IMG/VR virus record: IMGVR_UViG_3300021961_000598
Coordinates: 1-24,808 of that record
Strand: one strand, 5' to 3'
DNA length: 24,808 nt
Origin: a virus
Shown: piece after piece, positions 1-24,808 of the stretch
How positions within the stretch are numbered: position 1 is the stretch's first letter
Layout: the number at the start of each line of letters is the position of its first letter
Made by a program: the position numbers and the translations under genes
The notes under the pieces: generated by a model
What the model was told of the DNA's origin: nothing
Seen by the model: only the letters and a program-made list of their open reading frames with translations
Database searches by the model: none

Positions 1-2587
1 CAGGAGCATTTACCCCTGCTATTGTAGGTTCTGTACCGTTAGCATTAATTTTAAAATCAATATACTCATAAATGTCTTGCACAATTCCAGCGGCTGCTGC
101 GCCAGCGCCTGCAGATCCTGCAGGTCGCGTAGTTACTTGTAACTCTGCATTACTTGTTGATTTTGTAATACCAATGTTTTGTACTACATCACTGATGATT
201 GCTTGTAGTCTAGAAATAGCATCAATAGTATAAGCAACATCGCCCGAATCAATTAAACTTCCAGCTGGCATAATTGTTGTTGAGCGCAATTCATCGCCAA
301 CAACTGTACAGTTTTCTGGAACTATTATTGGCAATACTTCTTCAAAGTCTCCTGTTTTAACTGTAATAGTGTCGTACGGCTTACGTTCAGCAGGGACACC
401 AGCTGTCGAACCTGCGGTAATTGCATTTACTACTATATTAATTAAACTTTCAAGCAATGCTTGAGCATCGCTTTCTTCAGTAAAATTAGTATTAACTACT
501 TGATCTATGTTTCCGTATTTTGTACCTGTGTCTACTCCAATAGTTAAATTAGACAACACTGAATCTGCAATGCTTTTAATTTGACTAATACCGTCAGCAG
601 TCTCAGTTGCGTTATCCGCAAGATATGTTACACCGTCTGTATCAAAGTAAGAAATTGCTGCTGCTCTAGTACGTGAATTTCCGCCATGTGTTAAATCCCA
701 TACAACTGCATCAACTATTTGTCCAATATCTCTACGACAGGTCTCTTTTGTATATGTAAGTGCTGGATATGTAGCATCTATATATTCAACTACTTCTTCT
801 TGTATAAAACTTCTATTTGGTTCTAATAAATTTTTAGCATTGTATTTTAATGCACCGGCTTGTACTTGCTCTGTTGCATAACGTAACGTTTTCCAAGGAC
901 GATCTAAAGATACACCGTTATTTGGAGCAGGAGTATCACTACCGTTTGCACCTACATAAAATACATTATTAAGAGATCCAAAGTATTTCCATTCTGGTGC
1001 ATTACCTGCTTGGTTTACAACAAGAACTTGTCCTGGGTTGCCAATTGGTAGTCTACGTGGGCCTGTAGAGCTATAGTAAACAATGTCGCCTAGCGTAGTT
1101 AAATTACCAGTTTCGGCTCCTGCATTTAGCAAATTCCAATTTGTGCCTAAAAGATCTTGATCTGGTCTATTTTGTACAGTAATTTCATCAGACGTATGTT
1201 CTAAAATACAAATGTAGCTATTAACACCATATTGTACAGCATCTCCTGCGTCATAGAACGTAGCATCAGTCCAAGTGTTTTTCCATTTGATTCCGCTGTT
1301 TAATCTTTGCCAATAAGTTAAATTAGGTGGACGTTGATTACTATGATCTAGTATACACAAATAAGTGTATCCGCCTAAACGAATTACATCACCAACTAGA
1401 TAGCTAGTTGCACCAGACCAGTCGTCAATAAATTTAAACCCAGTTGTAAATAAATTCCAGTCTGCTATATTATTTGGGGGAACAGAGTTATTATTGTTTG
1501 TAATAGCAACATAAGAATAACCACCATATGTTACAAAATCTCCAGGCTGATAAAGTGTACTAGAGTTCCAACTATCTTCGAATTCTAAACCTTCAACAAA
1601 CTGATCCCAATTTGCTTCGTCGGCTGCTAAACTAACTCCTGCGGTGTGTTCTGTTGTACATATCCAAACGCCACCGCCGTATTTTACAACATCGTTTATC
1701 TTATATCTTGTTGCTGATGTCCAAGTTCCTAAATATTCTAATCCTTTGTTTAAATAATCCCATTTAGATTGATCTGCTTCAAGTCCTAGTGAGTTTGTTG
1801 CTGCTGAAGTATGGCCTTGGTTACAAACATAAATTTGTCCTCCGTACTTTACAACATCATTAACGCGATATCTTGTTGATACTGCCCAGTCTGTAGTCCA
1901 ATAAAGGCCTTCAGTAAACTTATCCCATTTAGATTGATCTGCTTCAAGTCCTAGCGATTCTGTTGCTGCTGAAGTATGACCTGTGTTACATACATAAACA
2001 ATACCATTATATTTAATGACATCATTTACTCTGTACCGTGTACCAACAACCCAATCATTTCTCCAATAAAAACCATCAGAAAATACGTTCCATTTAGCTT
2101 GATCAACTTCTAAGCCGTCTGCTTCTGTTACAGCTGAAGTGTGTTCTTGTATACAAATATAAACAACACCGTTATATTTTGCAATGTCGTTTACTTTGTA
2201 TCTTGTAGATACAGTCCAATCTTCTTTGTAGTCAAACCCTTCAGCAAATAAGTCCCATTTAGATTGATCTGCTTCAAGTCCTAGCGATTCTGTTGCTGCT
2301 GAAGTATGGGCAGTATTTGCAATATATAAGTATCCGCCGTATTTTACAATGTCCTTTACTTTATAATAAGTAGAAATTGCCCAATCTGATTTCCATTCAA
2401 TACCATCAGAAATTTTATTCCAGTAATAAGATTGATCAGTAGTGAATAGAGTGGGAGAAGTATGTCCTGCAATACATATGTATGTATTGCCACCGTTCCT
2501 AACAATATCATCTTTATAATAAGTAGTGGCAGAGGCCCAATTGCCTTTCCATATAAATCTAATTCTACCTAATTTAAATTCAGCCAT
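1..2587 (-). CDS. Giant tail fiber/adhesin with nine CBM5/12-like repeats (partial, C-terminus beyond window)
   Basis: The frame is open from an ATG at 2587 to the window edge, giving 862 codons with no stop, so the C-terminus is missing. Residues 8-490 are nine repeats of about 50-60 residues, with W...W...T.Y..GD.V.Y.G..Y.C...HT and a final W; this pattern resembles the CBM5/12 (ChtBD3) carbohydrate-binding fold. A linker with LPIGNPGQVLVV follows, then the FYVGANGSDT start of a right-handed beta-helix (about 542 on). The helix is interrupted by a helical segment (about 578-734) with the motif CRRDIGQIVDAVVWDL. The N-terminus MAEFKLGRIRFIWKG closely matches MADFRIERIRFNWKG of the 1638-aa gene immediately upstream, so the two are tandem paralogs. 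GGAGTG precedes the start at good spacing, and a late promoter element lies just upstream. A virion surface adhesin is the likely role, inferred from domains; sugar binding is unproven. Confidence 0.88.
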   Translation of the reverse strand, partial: MAEFKLGRIRFIWKGNWASATTYYKDDIVRNGGNTYICIAGHTSPTLFTTDQSYYWNKISDGIEWKSDWAISTYYKVKDIVKYGGYLYIANTAHTSAATESLGLEADQSKWDLFAEGFDYKEDWTVSTRYKVNDIAKYNGVVYICIQEHTSAVTEADGLEVDQAKWNVFSDGFYWRNDWVVGTRYRVNDVIKYNGIVYVCNTGHTSAATESLGLEADQSKWDKFTEGLYWTTDWAVSTRYRVNDVVKYGGQIYVCNQGHTSAATNSLGLEADQSKWDYLNKGLEYLGTWTSATRYKINDVVKYGGGVWICTTEHTAGVSLAADEANWDQFVEGLEFEDSWNSSTLYQPGDFVTYGGYSYVAITNNNNSVPPNNIADWNLFTTGFKFIDDWSGATSYLVGDVIRLGGYTYLCILDHSNQRPPNLTYWQRLNSGIKWKNTWTDATFYDAGDAVQYGVNSYICILEHTSDEITVQNRPDQDLLGTNWNLLNAGAETGNLTTLGDIVYYSSTGPRRLPIGNPGQVLVVNQAGNAPEWKYFGSLNNVFYVGANGSDTPAPNNGVSLDRPWKTLRYATEQVQAGALKYNAKNLLEPNRSFIQEEVVEYIDATYPALTYTKETCRRDIGQIVDAVVWDLTHGGNSRTRAAAISYFDTDGVTYLADNATETADGISQIKSIADSVLSNLTIGVDTGTKYGNIDQVVNTNFTEESDAQALLESLINIVVNAITAGSTAGVPAERKPYDTITVKTGDFEEVLPIIVPENCTVVGDELRSTTIMPAGSLIDSGDVAYTIDAISRLQAIISDVVQNIGITKSTSNAELQVTTRPAGSAGAGAAAAGIVQDIYEYIDFKINANGTEPTIAGVNAP
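1118..2566 (-). repeat. Nine tandem CBM5/12-like repeats (coding) in the partial giant fiber
   Basis: Nine units cover residues 8-490. Units 2-5 are exactly 55 residues (165 bp) each; units 6-9 are 51, 50, 49 and 58. Units 2, 4 and 5 share the segment SLGLEADQSKWD. At DNA level the plus-strand stretch starting tcccatttagattgatctgc occurs at about 1758, 1923 and 2253, that is at multiples of 165 bp, so the copies are recent or homogenised. Unit 7 lacks the Cys (YVAITNN) and unit 6 is shortened near ADEANW; the upstream paralog shows the same peculiarities. Confidence 0.85.
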
Positions 2588-2611
2588 TTAAGACACTCCA
2601 AATGTTTTTTA

Positions 2612-2619
2612 TATTTATC
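2612..2619 (-). promoter_or_regulatory. T4-type late promoter element GATAAATA
   Basis: On the minus strand this reads GATAAATA, a 7/8 match to the T4 late consensus TATAAATA. It lies in the 38-bp gap between the two giant fiber genes. Transcription starting about 6-7 bp downstream would leave an untranslated leader of about 18 nt containing GGAGTG before the ATG at 2587, a sensible layout. Recognition by a gp55-like late sigma factor is inferred from the T4 family. Confidence 0.5.
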
Positions 2620-2625
2620 AATTTA

Positions 2626-5600
2626 TTAATTTAGCTTTTGTCCAAAAGTAAAGTACTGCAACGCTAGGTATTTTCCTGCTGCTGCACTACTAAACTTTGT
2701 AGGACCTACTATATCTATTCGTTCACCAGTTGTTGTTGTTAATCGATTAGAATTTACTTTAACTTTTCCGGCAATAAGTGTTGTTGTATTTGCATTTGAT
2801 CCTCCACTTGTGATTCTACCTGACAAATACCTTATTATTGCTGCTTGTGTAGGAACAATGTTGTTTGAATTAGCTACAAATGTTCCTTCTTTAGAAAACT
2901 CTCTAATAATAACAGGGCTTGCACCTACTGCTAGTCCGCCTAAACTTATTTCATTTAAACCTGATATATCAAAAAATTCCGAGCTAACAGAAACAATCCC
3001 TGTTGCTTGATCAACTCTAAATAGCTCTCCAACACGGAAGTTGCCGTCTTGGTCGGTTGATGTATAAAACACGCGGCCTCCACCAATTTCAGTTGTTTCC
3101 TGTGGTTGTATTCCTTCTGGAGCAGTATAGTAACTTGTTCCGTATCTATCAGGATAATCAGTATTTTCAAAATTGCCTGAACCAATATCTAAGAAATCGT
3201 GTCCAGTTAATCTTACCTGGCTGTATTTTTGTCTAATAGTAATAGTGGTTTCATCATCAGGACTTTCAAGTGCAGCAATTGATGGAGTTATTCTAATTGT
3301 TGCTGTTAAATTAGGCGCAATTCCTGAAATATTTGTTGTACTAACTACTCTATAAACTTGATCATCAATTCCAGATATTAATAAATTGTCTCCAGGTCCT
3401 GGTTCAGTAGATAAATTTTTAACTTTTAAATAATTTCCTAGCTGATGCTCATTTGCGTTTCCGTTTCCGGCAACTGTACACGATGCTAAATTATATCCTG
3501 TTCCTCTATTATAGAAAACAGGTTGTGTTAATACTCCATTAGCTACAGCTACTTCAAACGATCCGTCAATAGTATTTTCAGGATCAATTATAGTTATTGC
3601 AGGCGTGCCAAGATAATAACTTCCAGGATCATAAACTAAAAAGGCAGAGATTCTACTTGAATCAACTACTGCTCTTACAATTGCTCTCGATCCTGTTTCA
3701 ATCGTGTTCCAAGAAGTTGACCCTGTTGCTGTTAAAATTATTTTTTCACCAGATCTTGCTAATTGCCCCCAATCGTTTGAAACAGTTGTATTATATAATC
3801 CTGGAAAATCACCAGACGATGCTGTTTTCCATATTTTACCATCTTTTGATTTGGCTAATATATTACCTAGTCCAGTTGCTAAAAACTCTCCAGAATCGTA
3901 AGATAAAACAGACAGTGTTGTTAGAGAATTTATAGAAGACTCATACCATGTTATACCATCAAAACTATATGCAGTATTATTATTGTCATCTACAGTAACA
4001 AATCTTCCATTACCATAACGCATATCACCCCAGTTTTTAGCTGATAAAGGTGTTATAGTAGTAAACGTCAATGCACCATCTTTACTATAAGCAATAGATC
4101 CTGTTCCGCTATTGTCATTTACAACATATGTGTTATTTCCGTATGCAGCTGAATTCCATGTTTCTGTTGTTGTACTTAAATTTGCAGAAACACTCCAAGA
4201 AGTTCCATTATTATAACTGATAAGTACTTCTCCGTCTGCTGATGATAATATTAGTTCACCTGTACCTGTAGATGCAATACCTTTCCATATTTTTGTAGAA
4301 GGCAGTGTAATTGTAGACCACGTGTCGCCGTTATCTGATTGTAATAGTTCGGCAACTGCTGCTCCTAGGTTATTTTCTTGCTTAACTACAATATACTTTG
4401 AACCAGTATATAACACGTTATTAACAACAAAGTCAGTACCTAAACTAGACGGCTCAGACCAGGTGCTGCCATCATCTGTACTAGTAGAAACGTACACTGT
4501 TCCTGTACCGCCGGCAGTAACTGTTACTAGTTTATTGCCGTTCATGATAAACTTCCAATTACTATCGCTTGGTCCTGTTATTAACTCAGGAGTAAAGGAC
4601 GGCTCTGGTATAAATACCCTAGGTTCAATTGAATAAAGTGTACTTCCGTCTAGTAGCGGCTCTATAGGATATCCAGGATATATGTGATCCCACCCTAATG
4701 CGCCATCAGATTCTCTACTAATTTCAGCTACTTTAGATACATCATCATAATTTGTTATCTTTCCATATTGTCCTATACCTTTTCCTGATACAATAAACAC
4801 TCTCATACCAACATATTTTTCAGAAGTTCCTGTTAAATCTGAACCTGCAAAAGTAATAGATTCGGTGTTTCCATCTTGGGCATAGTTTCTTAGATACTGA
4901 TAGTTTAGTCCTCCAGGGATTGAGGAATCAGCTTGTCCTAGCACTCTAATGTTAGATATAGCGCCGTTTCTAAATTCTTCAATAGAAGAATTAACACCAT
5001 ATCCGCTACCGATAAATGTTAAGGATGCAGATGAATAATTTTCTCCAGCATTACTGTATGCTAGTGCTATTATGTTTGATCCATTAGTATGAGTTCTATC
5101 AATTTGTGCTTGTAAAGTCTTATTATCTACTTGAGCAGTAATTGGTGTTTCTGTTGCATCAACTCCTTCTGCCCTAGATCCAAATGTTCCGTACGAGTTA
5201 TTTCCGTTTGCTGAACGTATAACTCCGCCGTTAGTTGACAAGTATCCAATGTATGCGTAGTACGTAAACACAGACACTAGTTCTACTTTTCCAGAACCGT
5301 TTGCCCAAATTGCAATACCATCGTTTATTATTTGTGTAAAGTCGTTGGCGACTATAGTTTTATTTCCGCCATTGTGCAAGGTTCCATCAATTTTTAAACC
5401 TACACATGCAGTACCAAACGTTGATACACGTTGTACATACGGAGACCTAGTAGTAATCCATGTGCTGCTATCATTTGGTCCTGTTCCGGGGTCAAGAGAC
5501 ACATATGCACCTGCACTTGGTCTTTTAGAATTATACTCTCCTTCAACACCAAGTGTTCCTATTAGTCCTTGAAGTGTTAAATTTTGAAGACTGGTTGCAT

Positions 5601-7542
5601 TTCTAACATAAAACATGTTAGATGTTTCATATCCAACAGCCGGAATAACTGTTACGCTTCTCAACTCGTCTCCTACTAGAGAAACACTAGCAGGTATAAC
5701 TATAGGTAGCTGTTCTTCATATATTCCTGTTTTTACAAAAACTGTTGCAGGTGCGCGACTAGCTTCATCTTCAAGAATATATTCCATTGCGTACTTAATT
5801 GTTTTAAATGGTAAATTAGTTGTTAGGCCAGCAGTTTCTTGGTCTGAACCGTTTTCATAGGATACAAAATAAACTTTGTTTGTATTATCAAATACATTCC
5901 ATGCAACTGCATCGTTAACTACTTTTAGTGCTTGACCTGGCAATCCAATTGCATGGCGGGTTGTATTAACGCCGTCATGAGTTCTAATGTCACCTATTGT
6001 AGTAAGTACATTTCCTGCTGTACCTTGTATTAAAGTTTCCCAGTATAGTCCTGCGCCTGCAACATCTGTTAAAGGATTATCTAATCCGCCCGTAGAGACA
6101 TGTCTAGCAATACAATGATAGGTTGTTCCTGCTAGAGTTACTATGTCTCCTATATAATATTGATGGCCAATTTCCCATGTATTTTTCCAAAACGTACCTT
6201 TTACTAGCTTAGTCCATGACACTTCTAGATCAGGGTATTCTCCAGAACTATCGGCGTTAGCATAATATAAATATCCGTTGTTTCTTACTACGTCACCTGT
6301 TAGGTAACTTTCACTAATGCTCCATTCCCCTCTATGATTGTAACCTTGTTTTAATAGTTCCCAATCACCTGTGTCTTGTAAAATTCCGTTTATACTAGGA
6401 ATAGATGCAGTATTATTGGTTAATGCTAGATAAGCATATCCGCCATAAAGTACAATATCGCCCTTTTTATATTCTTCAGAGCTAGACCAAACGTCTTCGT
6501 ACCCTAAGCCAGGTAACCACTCAGTCCAATTTGATTCATCATCTCTTAAGTTTGTTGTTCCGCTAGTATGATAAGTTGTACAAATCCAAAGCGAATTGCT
6601 CCATTTTATAATATCATTTAATTTATATCTTGTACTAATTGCCCAATGAGATTTATATTCTACGCCTGAAAAAACAATTTCCCATTTAGCTTGATCTGCT
6701 TCGAGCCCTAATGTTGTGTTAGCAGCAGAGGTGTGTGCTGCAATGCACCTATATACAATTCCGCCATATTTTACAATATCGTCTACAATGTATCTGACAT
6801 TTGTACCCCAATTAGTGTGCCATTTATCTGATCTAGAAACAATTTCCCATTTAGCTTGATCTGCTTCGAGCCCTAATGTTGTGTTAGCAGCAGAGGTGTG
6901 TCCCACAATACATCTGTATGTAGTTCCGCTATATTTTACAACGTCGTTAACTTTATAACGTCTATTGACAGTCCAGTTAGCATACCAGCTATCAGATACG
7001 GTTACAACAGTCCAGCTAGCTTGATGTGCTTCTAATCCAAGTGCAAGTGTTGTTGCTGAAGTATGTTTGGTACTACAAATATAAGTAATACCTCTGTAAT
7101 TGACAACATCACCTAAATCGTAATATGTAGATACAGTCCAATCGTTTAACCAGTTATATGTTGTTGCTATTAATGTCCAGTTAGAAATATTCCCCGGTAA
7201 GCCAAGACTTACGGTAGAAGTTGATGTATGGTTATCTGTACATTTATATACATACCCTTTATATTTTACAATATCTCCAGGGGTATAGTAAGTTGATGCA
7301 CTCCAATTACCTTTCCATTCATACCCGTCTAACATTAGTTCCCATTTAGCATCTGCTACTAACGGGCTTTCAGTAGTATATTCTAGGTCTGTATAAAAGT
7401 ATGTACTGTCTGATGTATGTGTAACTAGGCAGACATATGCTTTACCTCTATATAAAACAATGTCATCTTTAATATAATTGGTGGATGCTGTCCAGCTGCC
7501 CTTCCAGTTAAACCTAATTCTTTCAATTCTAAAATCTGCCAT
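2626..7542 (-). CDS. Giant tail fiber/adhesin: nine CBM5/12-like repeats, beta-helix, Asp-box propeller (1638 aa)
   Basis: Largest protein in the window. Residues 10-507 are nine CBM5/12-like repeats (W..NW..ST.Y..GDIV.Y.G..Y.C..HTS). A linker with GLPGQALKVV (about 533-542) follows, then a pectate-lyase-like right-handed beta-helix from FVSYENGSDQ (about 559) to about 790, including the VGDELRSVTVIPA segment shared with other fibers here. Residues about 985-1245 hold six Asp-box motifs (such as STDDGSTW, QSDNGDTW and YSFDGITW), the mark of a BNR/sialidase-type beta-propeller. The C-terminal part has FYTSTDQDGNFRVGELFRVDQATG (about 1492-1515), also found in the 830-aa and 1119-aa proteins. 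AGGAACG precedes the ATG. Most likely a virion adhesin or long fiber; glycan binding or hydrolysis is inferred only from domain types. A catalytic sialidase Arg triad could not be established by eye. Confidence 0.9.
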   Translation of the reverse strand: MADFRIERIRFNWKGSWTASTNYIKDDIVLYRGKAYVCLVTHTSDSTYFYTDLEYTTESPLVADAKWELMLDGYEWKGNWSASTYYTPGDIVKYKGYVYKCTDNHTSTSTVSLGLPGNISNWTLIATTYNWLNDWTVSTYYDLGDVVNYRGITYICSTKHTSATTLALGLEAHQASWTVVTVSDSWYANWTVNRRYKVNDVVKYSGTTYRCIVGHTSAANTTLGLEADQAKWEIVSRSDKWHTNWGTNVRYIVDDIVKYGGIVYRCIAAHTSAANTTLGLEADQAKWEIVFSGVEYKSHWAISTRYKLNDIIKWSNSLWICTTYHTSGTTNLRDDESNWTEWLPGLGYEDVWSSSEEYKKGDIVLYGGYAYLALTNNTASIPSINGILQDTGDWELLKQGYNHRGEWSISESYLTGDVVRNNGYLYYANADSSGEYPDLEVSWTKLVKGTFWKNTWEIGHQYYIGDIVTLAGTTYHCIARHVSTGGLDNPLTDVAGAGLYWETLIQGTAGNVLTTIGDIRTHDGVNTTRHAIGLPGQALKVVNDAVAWNVFDNTNKVYFVSYENGSDQETAGLTTNLPFKTIKYAMEYILEDEASRAPATVFVKTGIYEEQLPIVIPASVSLVGDELRSVTVIPAVGYETSNMFYVRNATSLQNLTLQGLIGTLGVEGEYNSKRPSAGAYVSLDPGTGPNDSSTWITTRSPYVQRVSTFGTACVGLKIDGTLHNGGNKTIVANDFTQIINDGIAIWANGSGKVELVSVFTYYAYIGYLSTNGGVIRSANGNNSYGTFGSRAEGVDATETPITAQVDNKTLQAQIDRTHTNGSNIIALAYSNAGENYSSASLTFIGSGYGVNSSIEEFRNGAISNIRVLGQADSSIPGGLNYQYLRNYAQDGNTESITFAGSDLTGTSEKYVGMRVFIVSGKGIGQYGKITNYDDVSKVAEISRESDGALGWDHIYPGYPIEPLLDGSTLYSIEPRVFIPEPSFTPELITGPSDSNWKFIMNGNKLVTVTAGGTGTVYVSTSTDDGSTWSEPSSLGTDFVVNNVLYTGSKYIVVKQENNLGAAVAELLQSDNGDTWSTITLPSTKIWKGIASTGTGELILSSADGEVLISYNNGTSWSVSANLSTTTETWNSAAYGNNTYVVNDNSGTGSIAYSKDGALTFTTITPLSAKNWGDMRYGNGRFVTVDDNNNTAYSFDGITWYESSINSLTTLSVLSYDSGEFLATGLGNILAKSKDGKIWKTASSGDFPGLYNTTVSNDWGQLARSGEKIILTATGSTSWNTIETGSRAIVRAVVDSSRISAFLVYDPGSYYLGTPAITIIDPENTIDGSFEVAVANGVLTQPVFYNRGTGYNLASCTVAGNGNANEHQLGNYLKVKNLSTEPGPGDNLLISGIDDQVYRVVSTTNISGIAPNLTATIRITPSIAALESPDDETTITIRQKYSQVRLTGHDFLDIGSGNFENTDYPDRYGTSYYTAPEGIQPQETTEIGGGRVFYTSTDQDGNFRVGELFRVDQATGIVSVSSEFFDISGLNEISLGGLAVGASPVIIREFSKEGTFVANSNNIVPTQAAIIRYLSGRITSGGSNANTTTLIAGKVKVNSNRLTTTTGERIDIVGPTKFSSAAAGKYLALQYFTFGQKLN
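3808..4590 (-). other. Sialidase-like (BNR/Asp-box) propeller domain within the 1638-aa fiber
   Basis: Residues about 985-1245. Six Asp-box-type motifs are visible, beginning near residues 1021 (STDDGSTW), 1069 (SDNGDTW), 1109 (SYNNGTSW), 1153 (SKDGALTF), 1193 (SFDGITW) and 1232 (SKDGKIW), spaced about 39-48 residues. Six blades fit a six-bladed propeller. Asp-boxes are structural and occur in non-enzymes too, so enzyme activity is not implied. Confidence 0.75.
6028..7515 (-). repeat. Nine tandem CBM5/12-like repeats (coding) in the 1638-aa fiber
   Basis: Nine units at residues about 10-507. Units 4 and 5 share HTSAANTTLGLEADQAKWEI exactly. At DNA level a 65-bp block is identical at 6672-6736 and 6837-6901, 165 bp apart (55 codons). 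Unit 6 is short (DDESNW), unit 7 lacks the Cys (YLALTNN) and unit 8 is the shortest. The same order of peculiarities appears in the paralogous array at 1118-2566. Confidence 0.85.
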
Positions 7543-8285: not shown

Positions 8286-11200
8286 TTATCCTAAGGTTAA
8301 CACATACTCTACTGCTAAATTTTCAGCAGCGGAGTATGTAATTGCACCCGATGATCCTGCTACCGAAACCCACGATGTGCCATCAAAAATTTCTAAATAG
8401 TTTTGGTTAGTATTAAAGCGAACCATACCTATTTCTCTATTTGCAGCTGGCGGTCTCTGAATATCAAGACCAACTGGAACAACGAACCCTCCTGTACTAT
8501 CAATTTTAAAATAACCATTACCAGTATTTCTAATGTAAGTTATACCGTTATTAGTCCTGTTTGTAATAGATGAATTTTTGAAAGCTAGTTCGTCTATTAC
8601 AACAGATCCAGTTCCGTTTGCACTTAAATCTAAATCTGTATTAGTTGTTATTGTACTTATTAAATTTCCGTCTATTACAATGTCATCAACTTCAATTCTA
8701 TCTGCCCTAAACCTAGTTTGATTAATATCGGCTACTAAAGAGCCGTCTGCATAGAATCTAATAATATTATCATTAGCACCAGGTGTTAGTTCTGCTGTAA
8801 TATAAGTGTTTAGATCTAAATCGTACACTCCATTTAAAGCTATCCAATTTCCGTCATATCCTTCAAACAAGTTAGTATCTGTATTATAACGTATCATACC
8901 AACTTCGGGTGATGTAGGACGCTGTAAGGTTGTACCTGTTGGTAGATTAAATGCTCCTGTACTTTCTACTCTAACAGTTTCACTAGCAGAGTCTAATATA
9001 ATATCTCCAACTAGACTTTCAATAGTGTTCCCGCTAATTCTTAAATTACCAGTTTCAATTTTTTGACCTGATAAAATTGTAGTACTTCCGCCAGTAGTAA
9101 TAGTTAAACCAGTTGAAGTGTCAATATTAAACGAAGCACTTGTAAAATTAACTGTTCCTGTTTGTTGGTCTACGTGGAAAAGGTCACCAACTCTAAAGTC
9201 CCCTTTATGATCAACGGAACTATAACGTACTTTAGCATTGTTTAGCTCAGTTACTTCTTGTGTTTGAATTGCGTTTATTGGATCATTAGTTGTTTCTTTT
9301 CCTGCACCTACATATGCAAAGTTATGGCTTATTAAATACATTAATACACCAGGGCCATCGCCATATGCACCATAATTACCATATATTGATGCGCTACTTA
9401 TTGAACGCAACTCTCCGCCAAAGTCGGTATAGTCAACTAATGTAAATTCAGTTGCAGTTGCACCCCCGCTAAATCTAATATCTTGTTGATAAATTACATC
9501 ATCTTGAAATTCAGTGGATCCGTTGTTGCCATCAAATCTGGCCATTAAGACCGTTTCAGGCGTAACAATAACTCTGGTTGCAGGTGCTGTAAAGTTAGCA
9601 GTATATATTGCTACAGTGTTTACAACTCTAACATCGTCAATATAACCTTCTAGTTCGTTTAAGCCATTGTAGTCTGCTCCTAACACTAGAGGTTTTGCTA
9701 CACCGTAGTTGTTTCCGTCGGTATATGTTATACCTACTTGAGTTCCATCAACAAATAACTTAGTGTTGCCGTTTTCTCTTGTTACAGCAATATGATGCCA
9801 TGTGTTTGTAGACAGTGTTCCACCTGTTATTTTGTCTGCGCTATCTGTATAGTATCTAACTTGTCCGCTACTTGTAACATATACTGATGGTGCAATATCT
9901 GCTGCTGATCCTGCTCTGAAATCAAATATTTGTTGAGTGCCTGTTAAATTACTTAGATAAATCCATGTTTCAACAGTAAAATCATCAGTTAAAAATCCAA
10001 AATCATTTGTAGCTGATATATTTGCATAGTCTCCAGTTCCGTCAAGATAAAGACTTGACTCACCAAACTTTTGCTGTGTTATACTAAGTTGTGCATCACC
10101 GTTGGCTGTAATAGTTTTGCCGCCGCGTTCTACTGCTGTATTAAACCCGGATACTTTTCCGCTGATGTAAAATTTTCCATCTGCATCTACACTGTCAATT
10201 GTTCCAGTTGCCAACACAGTTGTATTATCAAAATCGTAATAAGTAACTGTTTCTCCAGCAACATACGAACCATTTACTCCAGTTACACGAAGTGCAGTCT
10301 TGCCTTGACCTGCAATTCCCGAATTGCTATCAAATAGATACATTGCTCTGTTTGCAAAATACGTAAAGCACGACATCCATTCAATTCTTGTTCCGTTAGT
10401 TGCAGTTACAGCATCAACACCGGGTGTAATAAATGTTGTACTTTGGAAAAGCACAGATGCTTCGTTAGTGCTAGGGTCAGCTACTGATGCATCAAAGTAT
10501 CCGCCTTTACCTGCGTCGCCTGATGCAAATCCTCTCGGATCAGATCCGCTAGTAACACTACCTTGTGTAATTACAGATACGTTTCTAATGTAAGGGCTTT
10601 TAGTTGAAACAGTAAACCCAGAATTAAACTTAAAAGCATAACCTGTGTTATTTAGGTTATCATAGTAAAAATCTTTAATTGTTAAATCTTCTACAGTTAC
10701 TTGACCGTTAAGTAAAAAGGCGTCATTACTTTGTGTTGCTAAAGAAGGTTTAATGTTAACACTTCTTAAACTATGTCCTTTAACAGTTACGCCTGCAGGA
10801 ATTGTAATTGGAAATGTTTCTGTATACGTACCTGGGTATATATGTACAGTGTCGCCTGCACTTGCATTTTCAACAGCATACTTAACTGACCCATAAGGAT
10901 CATTTGGATGATCGCCTGAATACGTGTCGTCACCATTTTCAGCAACATACCAAATATTTCCTTGGCGTAATGCAACATCAACGCCGTCAACTTCTAAGCT
11001 AGTAGTTGTAACAGTTCCTGCATAAAAATTATTAACCCAAACATCAGCCCATTGTTTTCCGCCTGCTGTTGGATCACTACCAAGACTCCATACATTGTCT
11101 TGATCAGGAATTATATTAGATTGTATTTCTGCATTAAAGACAACATTATCAGTATCTGCATCACCAATTGTAATATTTCCGTCAGCAGTGATAGAGCCTG

Positions 11201-11645
11201 TTGCAACAATGTTACCATATACATTAGTATCAGCAAAAATTTCAACAGTTCCTGTGCCGTTAGGGCGAAGCTCTAAATTAACATCTGCTGTTGAATCATA
11301 GTTATTAGTTCTAATAACATTGTTTTCTAATTCAATGCTATCTATTTGCAACTTGTTTTGATAGACTACAGTATCTGCTGTTCCTAAGTTTAGTCTTGGT
11401 TGTGAGGTAGATATTGTGTTTCCGGTTATAGTTATGTTTGCTATATTTGCAATAGAAGAAACATTTAATCCGTTAACTGAACTTGTTCCGCGTATGTCTA
11501 AATCATATTGAGGTTGATCAGTATGAATACCGATTCGGCCGTTCTGAACATCTAAATAAAGTAGGTCGGTCTCAAAGGCCAGATTAACCCCTTCGCGAAG
11601 GAGGTTAGCCTTTAAGAGCGGACCTGTAATACGACCAACAGCCAT
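8286..11645 (-). CDS. Tail fiber-like beta-helix protein with inserted LamG-like domain (1119 aa)
   Basis: The N-terminus VGRITGPLLKANLLREGVN matches the 830-aa neighbour (NGRIGGGVLKDNLLRNGIN). Residues 20-230 are fiber-shaft sequence (NGTGTVEIFADTNVYGNI, then SLGS...WADVWVNNF). A right-handed beta-helix starts at WYVAENGDDTYSGDHP (about 232) with PGTYTETFPITIPAGVTVKG, GFASGDAGKG and TFITPGVDA. At about 449-739 a segment absent from the neighbour is inserted; it includes a concanavalin/LamG-like domain (about 521-705: FTVETWIYLS, WHHIAVTRENG, LFVDGTQVG, GYIDDVRV). The backbone resumes with GGELRSIS..IYGNYGAYGDG and DFRVGDLFHVDQQTG. The C-terminal part carries two GM[IV]R[YF]NT...GxW motifs and ends in EYVLTLG. 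TGAGGAGAAGAG precedes the ATG. Probably a virion fiber subunit; ligand unknown. Confidence 0.9.
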   Translation of the reverse strand: MAVGRITGPLLKANLLREGVNLAFETDLLYLDVQNGRIGIHTDQPQYDLDIRGTSSVNGLNVSSIANIANITITGNTISTSQPRLNLGTADTVVYQNKLQIDSIELENNVIRTNNYDSTADVNLELRPNGTGTVEIFADTNVYGNIVATGSITADGNITIGDADTDNVVFNAEIQSNIIPDQDNVWSLGSDPTAGGKQWADVWVNNFYAGTVTTTSLEVDGVDVALRQGNIWYVAENGDDTYSGDHPNDPYGSVKYAVENASAGDTVHIYPGTYTETFPITIPAGVTVKGHSLRSVNIKPSLATQSNDAFLLNGQVTVEDLTIKDFYYDNLNNTGYAFKFNSGFTVSTKSPYIRNVSVITQGSVTSGSDPRGFASGDAGKGGYFDASVADPSTNEASVLFQSTTFITPGVDAVTATNGTRIEWMSCFTYFANRAMYLFDSNSGIAGQGKTALRVTGVNGSYVAGETVTYYDFDNTTVLATGTIDSVDADGKFYISGKVSGFNTAVERGGKTITANGDAQLSITQQKFGESSLYLDGTGDYANISATNDFGFLTDDFTVETWIYLSNLTGTQQIFDFRAGSAADIAPSVYVTSSGQVRYYTDSADKITGGTLSTNTWHHIAVTRENGNTKLFVDGTQVGITYTDGNNYGVAKPLVLGADYNGLNELEGYIDDVRVVNTVAIYTANFTAPATRVIVTPETVLMARFDGNNGSTEFQDDVIYQQDIRFSGGATATEFTLVDYTDFGGELRSISSASIYGNYGAYGDGPGVLMYLISHNFAYVGAGKETTNDPINAIQTQEVTELNNAKVRYSSVDHKGDFRVGDLFHVDQQTGTVNFTSASFNIDTSTGLTITTGGSTTILSGQKIETGNLRISGNTIESLVGDIILDSASETVRVESTGAFNLPTGTTLQRPTSPEVGMIRYNTDTNLFEGYDGNWIALNGVYDLDLNTYITAELTPGANDNIIRFYADGSLVADINQTRFRADRIEVDDIVIDGNLISTITTNTDLDLSANGTGSVVIDELAFKNSSITNRTNNGITYIRNTGNGYFKIDSTGGFVVPVGLDIQRPPAANREIGMVRFNTNQNYLEIFDGTSWVSVAGSSGAITYSAAENLAVEYVLTLG
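9531..10085 (-). other. LamG/concanavalin A-like domain within the 1119-aa fiber
   Basis: Residues about 521-705. FGESSLYLDGTGDYANI, DDFTVETWIYLSN, NTWHHIAVTRENGNTKLFVD and LEGYIDDVRVVNTVAIYT follow the Laminin_G_3 (PF13385) pattern in order. The domain is typically a sugar- or protein-binding jelly roll. It is bounded by residues that align with an uninterrupted stretch of the 830-aa paralog. Confidence 0.8.
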
Positions 11646-11777: not shown

Positions 11778-14270
11778 TTACCCTAGGACAAGGGTATAAA
11801 GATCCATAATTTCATTCATAACAGTAACATCAACATTAGCACCTTCACCCGATGCTCGTATCCAGTTTAAACCATTATGAACTTCAAGAAAGTCTCTTTC
11901 AGTATTCCAACGTATCATTCCGGCTTCTACAGCACCTGGGTAATTTGAATTATTACCTACAGGAATGACAAATCCTCGATTAGTATCAATTTTAACGTAT
12001 CCTCTGCCTGTATTTGATATTGAAAATACACTGCCGCTAGAGTCTTCAATTACGCTAGCATCAATTTTTAAATTATATATGTTAGTAACTCCTAGTCCGT
12101 TGGGAGTTAGTAAAAGGTCATCAGAGTTTTGAGTTGTGGTGATTAATTTGTTATTAGCTAAAATATTATTTGTTTCTAGCCCATTAAGCTGGAATTCTGT
12201 TGCAGTTACTCTACCTGTTTCTATGTTATTTGCAGTAAGTACAATATTACCTAATGCATTATTTGCATTAATATTTGTTCTCCTGTTATCACTATAAACT
12301 CCATTAAAAGAAACATTAGCTGAACTAAATCCTTCGTATGCATTTAGTTGTGTGTTGAAACGAATATCCGACTCTTCATTCTTGCGCTGACTAGTAGTTC
12401 CTCTTGGGAGAATAAAAATACTGTTATTTGTGTCTACGTCAAATACTTTGGTTGTAGGAGACCATATTAAGTCTCCGTCAACGGTTTCTATAACATTTCC
12501 ATTAAATCTTATATTTCCTGTGTCAACACGTTCGCCATCTATGTATGTTATGCTGTTAGCAGTAGCAATATATATTGCTGTAATGCCACTAAAATCAACA
12601 GTGTTAGCATCAATACTAGTACTACCTTTTTCAAAATCTGCAAAGAATGCGTTGCCTACGCGAAAGGTTCCTAAATGATCAGTTGTAACAAAGTAAATTT
12701 TTCCACCGTTAAGTTCTACAATTTCTTGATCTTGTAATGCTAATGAAGCATCGTTGGAATAATCTTTTCCGCTTCCAGTATATGCAAAACTGTGTCCAAC
12801 AAAGTACATTACGCAGTTTGCACCGTCAGCAACTGCTCCATAGTTTCCATAAGAAGTAGATGTACCAATACTTCTAAGTTCTGCGCCGTACTTAGCACCT
12901 AGACTAAAAAGTCCCAAGGTTCCTTGTGTTGCATATATTGCCCTGTTAGAGAAATATGTAAAACAATTTACCCATTCAACCCTTACTCCATTTTTCATAG
13001 TAAGTGTGTCAACACCTGGTGTTATAAATGTTACTTTTTCAAATAACATGCTAGGATGCACGGTACTGCTATGAAGAACACTACCGTCAATTAAAGCGCC
13101 TTTACCTGCGTCGCCTGATGCAAATCCTCTTGGATCCAACGGATCTGTTCCTGCTGTTGATCCATATGTTACAACAGTTACATTTTTAACATACGGACTT
13201 CTGTCAGTGATAATTGCTCCAGGTGCAAAGCTAAATGCATAGCCTGTGTCGTTTAAATTATCATAAAAAAAGTCAGCAATAGTTACATGTTCTACCATTG
13301 TGTTTTGATTTAATTCAAAAACATTTTTTGACTCAGATCCGGCTGCTGGTTTAATAATTACACCACGAATATTTTCGCCAGTAACTGTAGTATTTTCAGG
13401 AACAACTAATGGTAAGTTTTCTTCATACTCCCCTGGATAAACAAATATAGTAACAGGACCGGCTGTGCTAGAATCAGCAACAGCTAAGGCATGTTCAATT
13501 GTTCTAAATGCACCATGTTGATGATCGCCTACATTAGTATCATCTCCTAGAGTACTAACATAAAAAATATTACCTTGACGTAATGCTAATGATGTATCAG
13601 AAACTGCAAAAGATCCAACTTCTACTCTAAGACCGTTTAGTAGATTACTGTATAAGTCTTTCCATTTTTTAGTTGGCGAACCTAAAGACCTAGTATTATC
13701 ATCCGGTATAATATCACTGTTAACATCTGATTCGAAATCAACTACATCGGTTGCATCATTGCCTAAAGTTAAATTTCCACCAAAGTTAATATTTCCAGTA
13801 GCATGTAAACTTCCGGTAATATTTGTATTTGCATATAGTTCTAATTTTCCTAATCCTACAGGTCTAATTTCTAAATTAGTATTTGGTGTATTAGTTGAAA
13901 TTGTGTTAAAATTAAAATTAATATTGTCTGTACTAATCGAAGAAGCAACAATTGTTGACGCTGATTGTATGTTTATATTACCAGAACTATCAAATGCATT
14001 TATATCGTTATTTTGTATTTCAAAAGTGGCTATATTAGCATATGCAGGATCTTCTAAAAATGTAGTTGCTAACGTTCCATTAACAGATAAATCATTAGAA
14101 GGAAATTCTGTGTTAACACCAATGCGATTGTTTACAACATCAAGTTGTAGTAGCGGTCTGTTTGCAGCAATCTCAGAAGAAGTATTGGCAAAATTTAAAT
14201 TTATTCCGTTGCGTAATAGATTGTCTTTTAATACGCCGCCGCCGATACGGCCATTTTGTGGTTCAGACAT
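11778..14270 (-). CDS. Tail fiber-like beta-helix protein (830 aa)
   Basis: Starts at ATG 14270 behind a strong AGGAGG. The N-terminal NGRIGGGVLKDNLLRNGIN and LQLDVVNNRIGVNTEFPSN are fiber-type beta repeats. NLEIRPVGLGKLELYANTNI and SLGSPTKKWKDLYSN follow, then a right-handed beta-helix from FYVSTLGDDTNVGDHQHGAF (about 236) to about 530, with YPGEYEENLPLVVPENTTV and RGFASGDAGKG. C-terminal motifs IRFNTQLNAYEGF (about 636) and GMIRWNTERDFLEVHNGLNW (about 784) follow, ending DLYTLVLG. Full-length similarity to the 1119-aa protein shows the two arose by duplication; this copy lacks the LamG insert. There is no trypsin-like S74 chaperone domain. Likely a structural fiber subunit, by homology pattern and context. 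Confidence 0.9.
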   Translation of the reverse strand: MSEPQNGRIGGGVLKDNLLRNGINLNFANTSSEIAANRPLLQLDVVNNRIGVNTEFPSNDLSVNGTLATTFLEDPAYANIATFEIQNNDINAFDSSGNINIQSASTIVASSISTDNINFNFNTISTNTPNTNLEIRPVGLGKLELYANTNITGSLHATGNINFGGNLTLGNDATDVVDFESDVNSDIIPDDNTRSLGSPTKKWKDLYSNLLNGLRVEVGSFAVSDTSLALRQGNIFYVSTLGDDTNVGDHQHGAFRTIEHALAVADSSTAGPVTIFVYPGEYEENLPLVVPENTTVTGENIRGVIIKPAAGSESKNVFELNQNTMVEHVTIADFFYDNLNDTGYAFSFAPGAIITDRSPYVKNVTVVTYGSTAGTDPLDPRGFASGDAGKGALIDGSVLHSSTVHPSMLFEKVTFITPGVDTLTMKNGVRVEWVNCFTYFSNRAIYATQGTLGLFSLGAKYGAELRSIGTSTSYGNYGAVADGANCVMYFVGHSFAYTGSGKDYSNDASLALQDQEIVELNGGKIYFVTTDHLGTFRVGNAFFADFEKGSTSIDANTVDFSGITAIYIATANSITYIDGERVDTGNIRFNGNVIETVDGDLIWSPTTKVFDVDTNNSIFILPRGTTSQRKNEESDIRFNTQLNAYEGFSSANVSFNGVYSDNRRTNINANNALGNIVLTANNIETGRVTATEFQLNGLETNNILANNKLITTTQNSDDLLLTPNGLGVTNIYNLKIDASVIEDSSGSVFSISNTGRGYVKIDTNRGFVIPVGNNSNYPGAVEAGMIRWNTERDFLEVHNGLNWIRASGEGANVDVTVMNEIMDLYTLVLG

Positions 14271-17139: not shown

Positions 17140-18312
17140 TTACTTGAAGCTTACGCTACCAGAAGTAATAGCAACGTTTGCTAGGTAATCTGCTGCGTTA
17201 CCAAGAGACGAAGCAGTATTGTTTAGCTCGACATATCCGTAACGTGTCATAAAGCTGACAGTTGGTTCGAATGTGCCTGGATCTAGAACAACACCACTAC
17301 TCATCAATGGAATGTATGGGCAGTAGAATGCAGGTGCATCAGACTCTGATGTACCTTTGTATCCAACGATAACGTTAGCATTGTCAGCAGCATATGTGTT
17401 GACGTATACTTTCATTGCGTTGTTTAGTGTACCAACTAGTTTAGTGTTAGTTGGAGCCTCAAATGCACCTTCAGTTGTACGTGCAAATGCAGATGTAGTA
17501 GCTGACTGTAGGATAGTTAGCGCAAATGGGCTAACAACAGCATAGTTACCAGCACCGCGACGTGTACGCTGTGCAATCAAGTTTGCAGCACGGTTGATTA
17601 GAACAGCTAGTGCAGCGTGTTCGTCACCAACAAATGTTGCAGTACCACTAACAGCAGTTTGGTCGTATGTTTCAACGGCCGAGCCACCTAGTGTGTTTAG
17701 TGAAGCAAGAACTTCCTGATCAATCTCAGCAGTAATTTCTTGTGCTAGAGCTGCCATGATTTCAGCTTCAACGTCGATGCCATGCATGGACTGTGCGTCC
17801 TGTGCAGATTCAAAAGTCCAACGTGCGCTGAGCTTACGAGTCTTGGCTTCAACAGTCTGCTTTAAGATCTGAATGCTTAGTCTGTTACCAGCTTCACCTT
17901 CTAGTGCAGCAGTAGCAGCAGCTCTACCGGATGTTGCACCGGAGTAGCTTTCAGCAATCTTAAATGGACTTAGAGCTTCTTCACCAGCAGTTGCACCAGA
18001 TGCACCTGCGTTAAATGTGTCTGCATAGCGGACACGTAGAGTGTGGATCTGACCCACTGGACCAGTCATTGGTTGTACACCAACTAGTTCGTTTGCAATA
18101 ACTGTTGGCATTACACGTCTGATCACTGGAAGGATCACACGATTTAGAGTTGCGACATTACCGGCAGAAGTAGCACCAGCAGTGGCAGTTTCTGAAAGAT
18201 ACTTGCGAGTATTTTCTAGTGTTGTTGCCATTACTGTCTTTTTGTTGCCTTGAAGGCCTTCAAGAAGTGCTGTCTTCGTGTCCTGCCAGCGACTTTCTAG
18301 TAGTTCTGACAT
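17140..18312 (-). CDS. 23: Major capsid protein gp23
   Basis: Shell subunit of the T4-like head. Diagnostic block VILPVIRRVMPTVIANELVG, then VQPMTGPVGQIHTLRVRYAD (residues about 59-98), corresponds to the T4 gp23 region with ILPVIRR and GVQPM. Central RKLSARWTFESAQDAQSMHG and EAEIMAALAQEITAEIDQEV and the C-terminal FYCPYIPLMSSGVVLDPGTFEP and TRYGYVELN are also gp23-typical. At 390 aa it is well shorter than T4 gp23 (521 aa). The region before the conserved block is only about 57 residues; L-x-E sites at LLE18 and LSE41 are candidate gp21 cleavage points, LSE41 better placed. AAGGAGA precedes the ATG. Followed by a strong terminator, consistent with high expression. Confidence 0.97.
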   Translation of the reverse strand: MSELLESRWQDTKTALLEGLQGNKKTVMATTLENTRKYLSETATAGATSAGNVATLNRVILPVIRRVMPTVIANELVGVQPMTGPVGQIHTLRVRYADTFNAGASGATAGEEALSPFKIAESYSGATSGRAAATAALEGEAGNRLSIQILKQTVEAKTRKLSARWTFESAQDAQSMHGIDVEAEIMAALAQEITAEIDQEVLASLNTLGGSAVETYDQTAVSGTATFVGDEHAALAVLINRAANLIAQRTRRGAGNYAVVSPFALTILQSATTSAFARTTEGAFEAPTNTKLVGTLNNAMKVYVNTYAADNANVIVGYKGTSESDAPAFYCPYIPLMSSGVVLDPGTFEPTVSFMTRYGYVELNNTASSLGNAADYLANVAITSGSVSFK

Positions 18313-23714: not shown

Positions 23715-24808
23715 TTACATAAACTCTGGTTTAGTGTTTCTTTCAATCTTGGCGTCAATTTCTTTCATTTCTTTTAATAAAACATATACATCATTCATTA
23801 TTTTTGTTAATGTTTCATTAGATTGCGAACCACTACCTGTATTTACACTAATCTTCTGCAATACTTCTGTCATAGTGGGTCCTGACGATCCGCCCATCCA
23901 ACCCTTTTGAGTTCCTTTAGCCATTTCTTCATTTAGTTTAGATAAAGCAGTAGACAATTCTTTTATACTATTAGTATAATTGGTTAGTTGAGTATTGTCA
24001 AGGCCTTTTAATGAATCGAATACCGATTTTAGTGCTGGAGTGCTACCTGCTTCTGCAATTGCAGCAAATCCTTTTGCAGCACTATCAAGTCCGCCTCGAT
24101 AGTTTAAAGTTGCTAGCCTTGCTATGTTTTCTACTGTGCCTGAGCTTATACCTAATGTTGCACCATCGGTGCTTTGCATTCCTTTTAGTGCTGTGCTAAA
24201 AACAGTTAGGGCTGCTGCATTTTTAGCAACAGCATCTGCATTAAGTGGTAGTTCACCAAATTGTTTAAGTTGATCAAACGGACCTGTCCCCGAACCAAAT
24301 AAAGAAGCTAGAGCATTCTTAAATGATTCAAACACACTTACTTCAGGTGTTTTGGGGAAATCTTTTATTGCATTAGCATAGACTTTTACTGCTAGACTAT
24401 TTGATGTAATCTTTCCTAAATTTAAATCTAGTCCACTAAAAGCAACAAGACCTGCCCAAGGACTTGCATCAACACCCATCAGTTTGGCTAGTCCTTGTTT
24501 GAATATATCAAACACATCAGCTGCTGGCGTTGTAGGAAAATCTTTTATTGCATTAGCATATGCCTTTACTGCTAGACCATTTGATCCAATTGCAGCTTTA
24601 TCTAGTTCAAGTAATTGAAAACTTTTTAGTCCAGCCCAAGGACTTGTATCAACACCTATCAGTTTGGCTAGTCCTTGTTTGAATATATCAAACACATCAG
24701 CTGCTGGTGTTTTGGGGAAATCTTTTATTGCATTAGCGTATGCCTTTACTGCTAGACTATTTGATTCAATTGCAGCTTTATCTAGTTCAAGTAATTGAAA
24801 ACTCTTTA
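23715..24808 (-). CDS. Structural-type protein with 60-residue repeats (partial, N-terminus beyond window)
   Basis: The frame is open to the right edge, so only the last 363 residues are seen; a GTG at 24695 (in PAADVFDIF) lies inside a repeat and is not the true start. Three 60-residue units (VFDIFKQGLAKLMGVDASPW, then SLAVKVYANAIKDFPKTP) lie in tandem, with a partial fourth upstream; the last is diverged. The C-terminal 150 residues are helical (LKGLDNTQLTNYTNSIKELS, NETLTKIMNDVYVLLKEMKE) and end in a likely coiled coil, KIERNTKPEFM. No catalytic motif, signal or membrane segment. The gene directly before gp20 is not the expected tube gp19. Amphipathic helical repeats resemble tape-measure-type proteins, but I cannot name the family. 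Confidence 0.82.
   Translation of the reverse strand, partial: KSFQLLELDKAAIESNSLAVKAYANAIKDFPKTPAADVFDIFKQGLAKLIGVDTSPWAGLKSFQLLELDKAAIGSNGLAVKAYANAIKDFPTTPAADVFDIFKQGLAKLMGVDASPWAGLVAFSGLDLNLGKITSNSLAVKVYANAIKDFPKTPEVSVFESFKNALASLFGSGTGPFDQLKQFGELPLNADAVAKNAAALTVFSTALKGMQSTDGATLGISSGTVENIARLATLNYRGGLDSAAKGFAAIAEAGSTPALKSVFDSLKGLDNTQLTNYTNSIKELSTALSKLNEEMAKGTQKGWMGGSSGPTMTEVLQKISVNTGSGSQSNETLTKIMNDVYVLLKEMKEIDAKIERNTKPEFM
24156..24806 (-). repeat. Tandem 180-bp (60-residue) coding repeats
   Basis: Units at 24695-24516, 24515-24336 and 24335-24156, plus a partial unit at 24806-24696. The first units are nearly identical in DNA: the plus-strand segment agtttggctagtccttgttt recurs 180 bp apart (24481 and 24661). 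The third unit keeps only the pattern (VFESFKNALASLFG). The array continues beyond the window. Confidence 0.9.

Follow-up and report, generated by a model that had tools for sequence, protein, structure and literature searches.

Why two adjacent phage tail fiber genes carry the same number of CBM5/12-like units, arranged in the same order, is the question raised by this locus. The window, which is the whole stretch of DNA analysed here, is a 24,808-nt (24.8-kb) contig of a marine phage with T4-type genes on the minus strand. The genes for the portal (Portal_T4 match, E 9e-114), the prohead protease and the major capsid protein are followed by a series of large fiber-like genes.

17140..18312: major capsid protein; the nearest relatives (66–69% identity) include those of the jumbo T4-like phages Phosso (a Sinorhizobium phage), Vibrio phage 2.275.O and PA5oct

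Because the capsid protein is closest to those of jumbo T4-like phages, the contig probably represents part of a large genome, and membership of the phage in the Kyanoviridae was not assumed. Two further fiber-like genes (8286-11645 and 11778-14270) match phrog_13163, which is annotated as a baseplate wedge subunit; both have a region in common with the phrog_9851 fibers described below and are without a CBM array, and the former encodes a Laminin_G_3 (concanavalin A-like) domain. A 180-bp tandem repeat at 24454-24808 (two copies, 94% identical) encodes repeated segments (KSFQLLELDKAA...) that have no Pfam match; its gene (23715-24806, minus strand) is cut by the contig end.

The two fiber genes, A and B, adjoin, and A precedes B. 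By profile match and common domain order, both belong to phrog_9851, a known family of tail fibers; a search of A and B against NCBIfam gave no match.

2626..7542, minus strand: gene A, a 1638-aa tail fiber with nine N-terminal CBM5/12-like units, then a beta-helix and a C-terminal part; PF02839 E 7.4e-56, phrog_9851 E 4.5e-194
2..2587, minus strand: gene B, a paralogous tail fiber with an N-terminal nine-unit array, truncated by the contig end (at least 862 aa); PF02839 E 3.3e-53, phrog_9851 E 2.2e-170
4663..5850 (approximate limits), minus strand: post-array beta-helix region of A, pectin-lyase-like (AlphaFold model, Foldseek)
2650..3675, minus strand: C-terminal region of A common to B-type genes; 43% identity to the B gene of relative L012

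The arrays occupy 6013-7506 in A and 1118-2551 in B. A first-pass annotation of the window had counted nine repeats in each gene, and PF02839 finds the same number: 18 matches, nine per frame, of which 13 exceed the Pfam cut-off of 26.2 bits. The matches mainly span positions 1-31 of the 44 in the profile, and whole-protein scores (hmmscan) are 186 bits for A and 178 bits for B. The span 1118-7515 previously assigned to the repeats holds both arrays but also takes in ~3.4 kb of the non-repeat C-terminal part of A. The individual units are as follows.

7318..7506, minus strand: A unit 1, N-terminal cap slot
7153..7317, minus strand: A unit 2, middle block
6988..7152, minus strand: A unit 3, middle block
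6823..6987, minus strand: A unit 4, middle block; 78% DNA identity to unit 5
6658..6822, minus strand: A unit 5, middle block; like unit 4, it matches slot 4 of eight-unit relatives
6502..6657, minus strand: A unit 6, which opens the fixed block of four C-terminal units
6337..6501, minus strand: A unit 7, no Cys
6190..6336, minus strand: A unit 8, shortest
6013..6189, minus strand: A unit 9
2396..2551, minus strand: B unit 1, N-terminal cap slot
2231..2395, minus strand: B unit 2, middle block
2066..2230, minus strand: B unit 3, middle block
1901..2065, minus strand: B unit 4, middle block; slots 3 and 4 of eight-unit relatives fit equally well by score; likely the added unit
1736..1900, minus strand: B unit 5, corresponding to slot 4 in relatives with eight units
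1583..1735, minus strand: B unit 6, which opens the fixed block of four C-terminal units
1433..1582, minus strand: B unit 7, no Cys
1286..1432, minus strand: B unit 8, shortest
1118..1285, minus strand: B unit 9

The two arrays correspond slot by slot. Both proteins begin with the motif MA[DE]F..[EG]RIRF.WKG, as had been pointed out, and the peculiarities ascribed to single slots recur in both genes: unit 6 is short and contains DE[SA]NW, unit 7 is Cys-free and contains Y[LV]A[LI]TNN, unit 8 is the shortest and unit 9 is long. The unit lengths are 63, 55, 55, 55, 55, 52, 55, 49 and 59 residues in A and 52, 55, 55, 55, 55, 51, 50, 49 and 56 in B; Cys is also absent from units A8 and B2. A tree of the 18 window units leaves 11 of 15 branches open, the units being too short to resolve, and slot pairing was judged instead by a permutation test and by slot profiles built from orthologues. 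The matching order of the units is confirmed by the permutation test, in which the identity order scores best among all 362,880 A-B unit pairings (summed alignment score 1188 versus a mean of 826, sd 72). Within the window, slots 1, 6, 7 and 8 are reciprocal best matches across A and B, slot 9 pairs weakly, and slots 2-5 are without a clean pairing. Across 98 eight-unit pairs, slots 1, 4, 5, 6, 7 and 8 each find their best match in the same slot of the other gene, with a blurred signal for slots 2 and 3; most slots also pair across genes in 57 seven-unit pairs. Slot identity is therefore old.

Sequence comparison identifies A and B as ancient full-length paralogues that arose by duplication of a whole gene with a slot-specific array. 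Homology between A and B extends beyond the array in all 25 sampled pairs, with 39–53% identity after the array in L012, and a single branch with support of 100 divides all A genes from all B genes in a tree of the C-terminal part, so the duplication predates the sampled family. The idea that a whole nine-repeat gene had been duplicated thus survives in its first half, through the full-length homology and the slot pairing in the 98 eight-unit pairs; the nine repeats before duplication do not, since the nearest relatives, L012 and L034, have 8+8 units and the window is nested among such pairs. It groups with these two in the joint tree (support 99/82 and 100/96) and the A tree (95/92), and more weakly in the B tree. 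In terms of slot profiles, the array of A reads A1 A2 A3 A4 A4 A5 A6 A7 A8 and that of B reads B1 B2 B3 B3/4 B4 B5 B6 B7 B8. In A, the additional unit (either unit 4 or unit 5) resembles a duplicate of A slot 4; in B, it resembles one of B slot 3/4. These profiles and the DNA identity of A units 4 and 5 indicate that A and B each gained a middle-block unit from within themselves. By this evidence, nine units are a late state that was reached separately in A and in B.

The number of units is strictly equal in the two genes throughout the family. Relatives were gathered by eight IMG/VR scans, each contributing the best 80 of roughly 570 family matches; all were found by similarity to A or B, and pairs with a very divergent partner could escape. 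For counting, a profile restricted to the N-terminal half of the unit was used; it distinguishes units well from noise (<6 bits), and its threshold was lowered from 12 to 7 bits. Among the matches listed, 254 complete adjacent pairs were reduced to 171 non-redundant ones (kmer cut 0.7), and the numbers in A and B are equal in 171 of 171: 8,8 in 104 pairs, 7,7 in 66 and 9,9 in one, which is the window. No unequal pair occurs among these 254 complete or 171 non-redundant pairs, nor, again among the matches listed, in the 104 pairs left by the strictest redundancy cut. L078/L151, L152 and L250/L300 at first appeared unequal, with one insert-split or divergent unit at 7-10 bits; the counts of L078, L152 and L250 were inspected and read as equal, one such unit being found in each, and at the final threshold of 7 bits these contigs count as equal. 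The gap between A and B is ~0-80 nt in 170 of the 171 pairs listed.

This equality has persisted through repeated change. Trees of 65 and 84 pairs require at least about six changes of unit number, four to five of them forced by supported branches, and on the best tree the number always changes in both genes. A single clade of seven-unit pairs is rejected (AU p = 5e-7). When six random changes per gene are simulated, all pairs come out equal in 0 of 20,000 runs, with a mean of 20 of 84 pairs unequal. The phylogenetically independent contrasts number ~3-5, too few for a sign test to reach significance; the three on supported branches are all in step. The changes hit the same middle block in both genes, with slot 1 and the last four slots fixed. 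Array spans in residues are uncorrelated between A and B among 8,8 pairs (r = -0.03), because large inserts occur in the loops of single units, in either A or B; the unit count is therefore what is constrained. In L014, L025, L034, L043, L051 and L054, large insertions are located in loops of single units of A or B, in slots that do not match. The contigs of L016, L070, L080, L092, L154 and L169 contain elsewhere a ~5000-aa frame with weak CBM_5_12 matches.

The units have the fold that their profile matches predict. An AlphaFold monomer model of the B array (mean pLDDT 87, pTM 0.59) has the same strand pattern in most units and is confident within most of them; it is weak around units 3-4, where eight-unit relatives offer no aligned partner. 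The units are modelled as small twisted beta-sandwiches with an aromatic core, a CBM5/12-like and not an unrelated fold, and Foldseek matches the array to the CBM domains of chitin deacetylase, to chitinase C, to the long tail fiber of phage 7-7-1 and to the receptor-binding complex of the Milano baseplate. Residues equivalent to Trp656, Tyr662, Val668, Tyr670, Tyr675 and Trp696 of the ChiA1 chitin-binding domain are retained in the phage units, the core positions being kept in 92% (W656), 88% (Y662), 77%, 62%, 75% and 56% of units, where the final Trp was used for selection. The exposed tryptophan of ChiA1 that stacks on the sugar is Trp687 (PMC3701571, PMC2265269). No Trp is present in the corresponding loop of any of the 18 window units, and only 2 of 944 family units have one. 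With the core retained and Trp687 missing, the fold has been kept and the known binding residue lost. The label CBM5/12-like therefore holds for the units by PF02839 match, fold and core residues, but is not supported in the sense of a chitin-binding module.

What the equal arrays do can be read in several ways. The first-pass annotation suggested polyvalent chitin- or glycan-binding strings, a reading which the clear PF02839 matches favour; the His-Thr of the site region is also often kept (H681 in 67%, T682 in 58% of units), and other glycans are conceivable. This interpretation is nevertheless unsupported and highly improbable, given the loss of the ligand tryptophan from units with an intact core and the location of the array at the N-terminal end, which is usually virion-proximal. 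In solved phage tailspikes, the CBM5/12-type fold lies at the virion-attachment end, and polysaccharide binding by it is unreported (PMC3966878, PMC10811340); the authors of the CBA120 TSP1 structure stated that sugar binding by such virion-binding heads had never been reported (PMC3966878). PF02839 matches on phage fibers should accordingly not be read as chitin or glycan binding before the ligand residue is checked. Alternatively, other tailspikes could dock on the arrays, a different partner on each slot, within a branched receptor-binding complex. The slots are individually distinct and conserved, and the N-terminal domains of CBA120 TSP4 and TSP2 have such a role (PMC8825819), but the XD domains of TSP4 are T4 gp10-like and are not likened to the chitin-binding fold in that work. 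Docking alone leaves both the equal A and B counts and the near-copy middle units unexplained, and we regard it as unlikely.

Equal counts could also arise without any structural demand, if gene conversion or unequal crossing-over copied unit changes from one gene to the other. Tandem paralogues with similar repeats can recombine, a tree of the beta-helix core mixes A and B a few times (five changes), and 4 of 515 A units have a marginally better match among the B units of their own genome than among orthologues. However, none of 515 B units has a better match in the partner gene than in an orthologue, the units added in the window resemble those of their own gene and not those of the partner, and the C-terminal tree keeps A and B apart. 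Gene conversion was tested as the source of the equal counts and not seen, and concerted evolution seems very improbable. A more serious possibility, though still a rather doubtful one, is that A and B form two homotrimeric fibers side by side on the tail or baseplate with the same reach, or are both matched to a third object such as the sheath, a whisker or another fiber. A common ruler would give equal counts too, the short tail fibers of Milano run parallel to and contact the tailspike (PMC10811340), and the different insert domains of A and B suit two separate fibers. Reach, however, depends on total length, and the post-array lengths differ widely (1237-2940 aa in A); the array spans of 8,8 pairs are uncorrelated. 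In the larger contigs, no third gene has an array of the same number, apart from the scattered matches in the ~5000-aa frame.

On balance, we consider that the A and B arrays are probably virion-proximal stalks assembled in register and not glycan-binding strings, most likely within one heterotrimeric fiber. We infer the virion-proximal position and the co-assembly of A and B; a trimeric stacking of the slots would follow the example of known tailspike heads. The N-terminal CBM5/12-fold arrays would form a stalk near the virion, with the two arrays assembled together, slot against slot. In the favoured arrangement, a heterotrimer of A and B chains, each slot would constitute one three-fold disc, and the discs would stack into a rod that continues into a trimeric beta-helix. 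Loop insertions in single units would point outward and would thus be tolerated in one gene only, whereas all chains would need the same number of discs; the gain or loss of a unit in one gene would persist only when the other gene follows. The strict equality would then have a simple reason, namely that A and B chains lie in one rod, most likely a heterotrimer. More tentatively, A and B may be an obligate heterotrimeric tail fiber derived from a duplicated homotrimer gene, in which the equal disc number acts as a heritable register of the two genes. Against the heterotrimer, A and B carry different insert domains, which one fiber would have to accommodate.

The region behind the array is consistent with a fiber of this type. 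The AlphaFold model of post-array A is confident only over its first ~280 residues; Foldseek, at weak TM-scores, places it closest to the tail fiber of phage 7-7-1 (9rkv) and to beta-helix enzymes. On this model, a beta-helix follows the N-terminal module, as in trimeric beta-helix tailspikes and fibers. The 9rkv structure is matched by both the array and the post-array models, and the array profile hits residues 29-89 of 9rkv_M at a non-significant E of 0.046.

In limited open-access searching, we found no description of matched repeat numbers in adjacent paralogous fibers and no paper on such arrays among the literature on phage CBM5/12 fibers. The strict repeat-number match points to co-assembly that can be addressed at the bench, and the question of whether A and B form a hetero-oligomer becomes directly testable. 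Matching repeat numbers may serve more generally as a genomic signature of proteins that assemble together in register.

Solitary homologues vary in unit number, with 5, 6 or 10. A single gene of this kind is present in cultured phages of Prochlorococcus, Synechococcus and Pelagibacter; its units, five in P-SSM2, S-CAM1, S-CAM3, S-SSM7, Sf-FS3 and S-BM3 and six in Mosig, correspond to the outer slots. L319/L320 have one ten-unit gene, and no partner gene was found within 10 kb upstream (L319) or ~7 kb downstream (L320). L144, with nine units, was dropped as a solitary gene; its contig ends before any partner gene could appear. In Synechococcus phage S-BM3 (L206, 8992-9891), a version of the fiber of ~298 aa consists almost only of the five-unit array, and a large virion structural protein gene lies directly behind it. 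The phrog_9851 fibers of P-SSM2, S-CAM1, S-CAM3, S-SSM7, Mosig and others begin with MA[DE]F..xR[IL][RK]F, as do A and B, and the solitary ones share with A and B the N-terminal CBM5/12-like array, the same slots at the end of the array and the beta-helix behind. In these phages the fiber gene is single and encodes 5 or 6 units, in contrast to the A/B type, a tandem pair with 7-9 matched units.

Among domains of known structure, the ChiA1 chitin-binding domain shares its core with the phage units, which differ in having no Trp687, in a longer loop ahead of the last Trp and in being arrayed on a phage fiber. Subdomain D2 of CBA120 TSP1 superposes on the ChiA1 domain with 2.1 A over 38 CA and, like the A and B units, has the chitin-binding-domain fold; in TSP1, it is part of a trimeric head that attaches to the virion (PMC3966878). 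TSP1, a homotrimer, differs from A and B in having a single such domain, of very low sequence identity to ChiA1. The long tail fiber of phage 7-7-1 is a trimer in which an N-terminal region anchors to the baseplate and a beta-helix comes next (PMC12796354). Both this protein (gp015 of an Agrobacterium phage, 9rkv) and the Milano tailspike gp124 have small N-terminal beta domains followed by a trimeric beta-helix (PMC12796354, PMC10811340), and both are matched by the array model, with 7-7-1 also matched by the post-array part. Each, however, is encoded by one gene with two small N-terminal domains, whereas A and B carry nine-unit arrays and form a matched pair.
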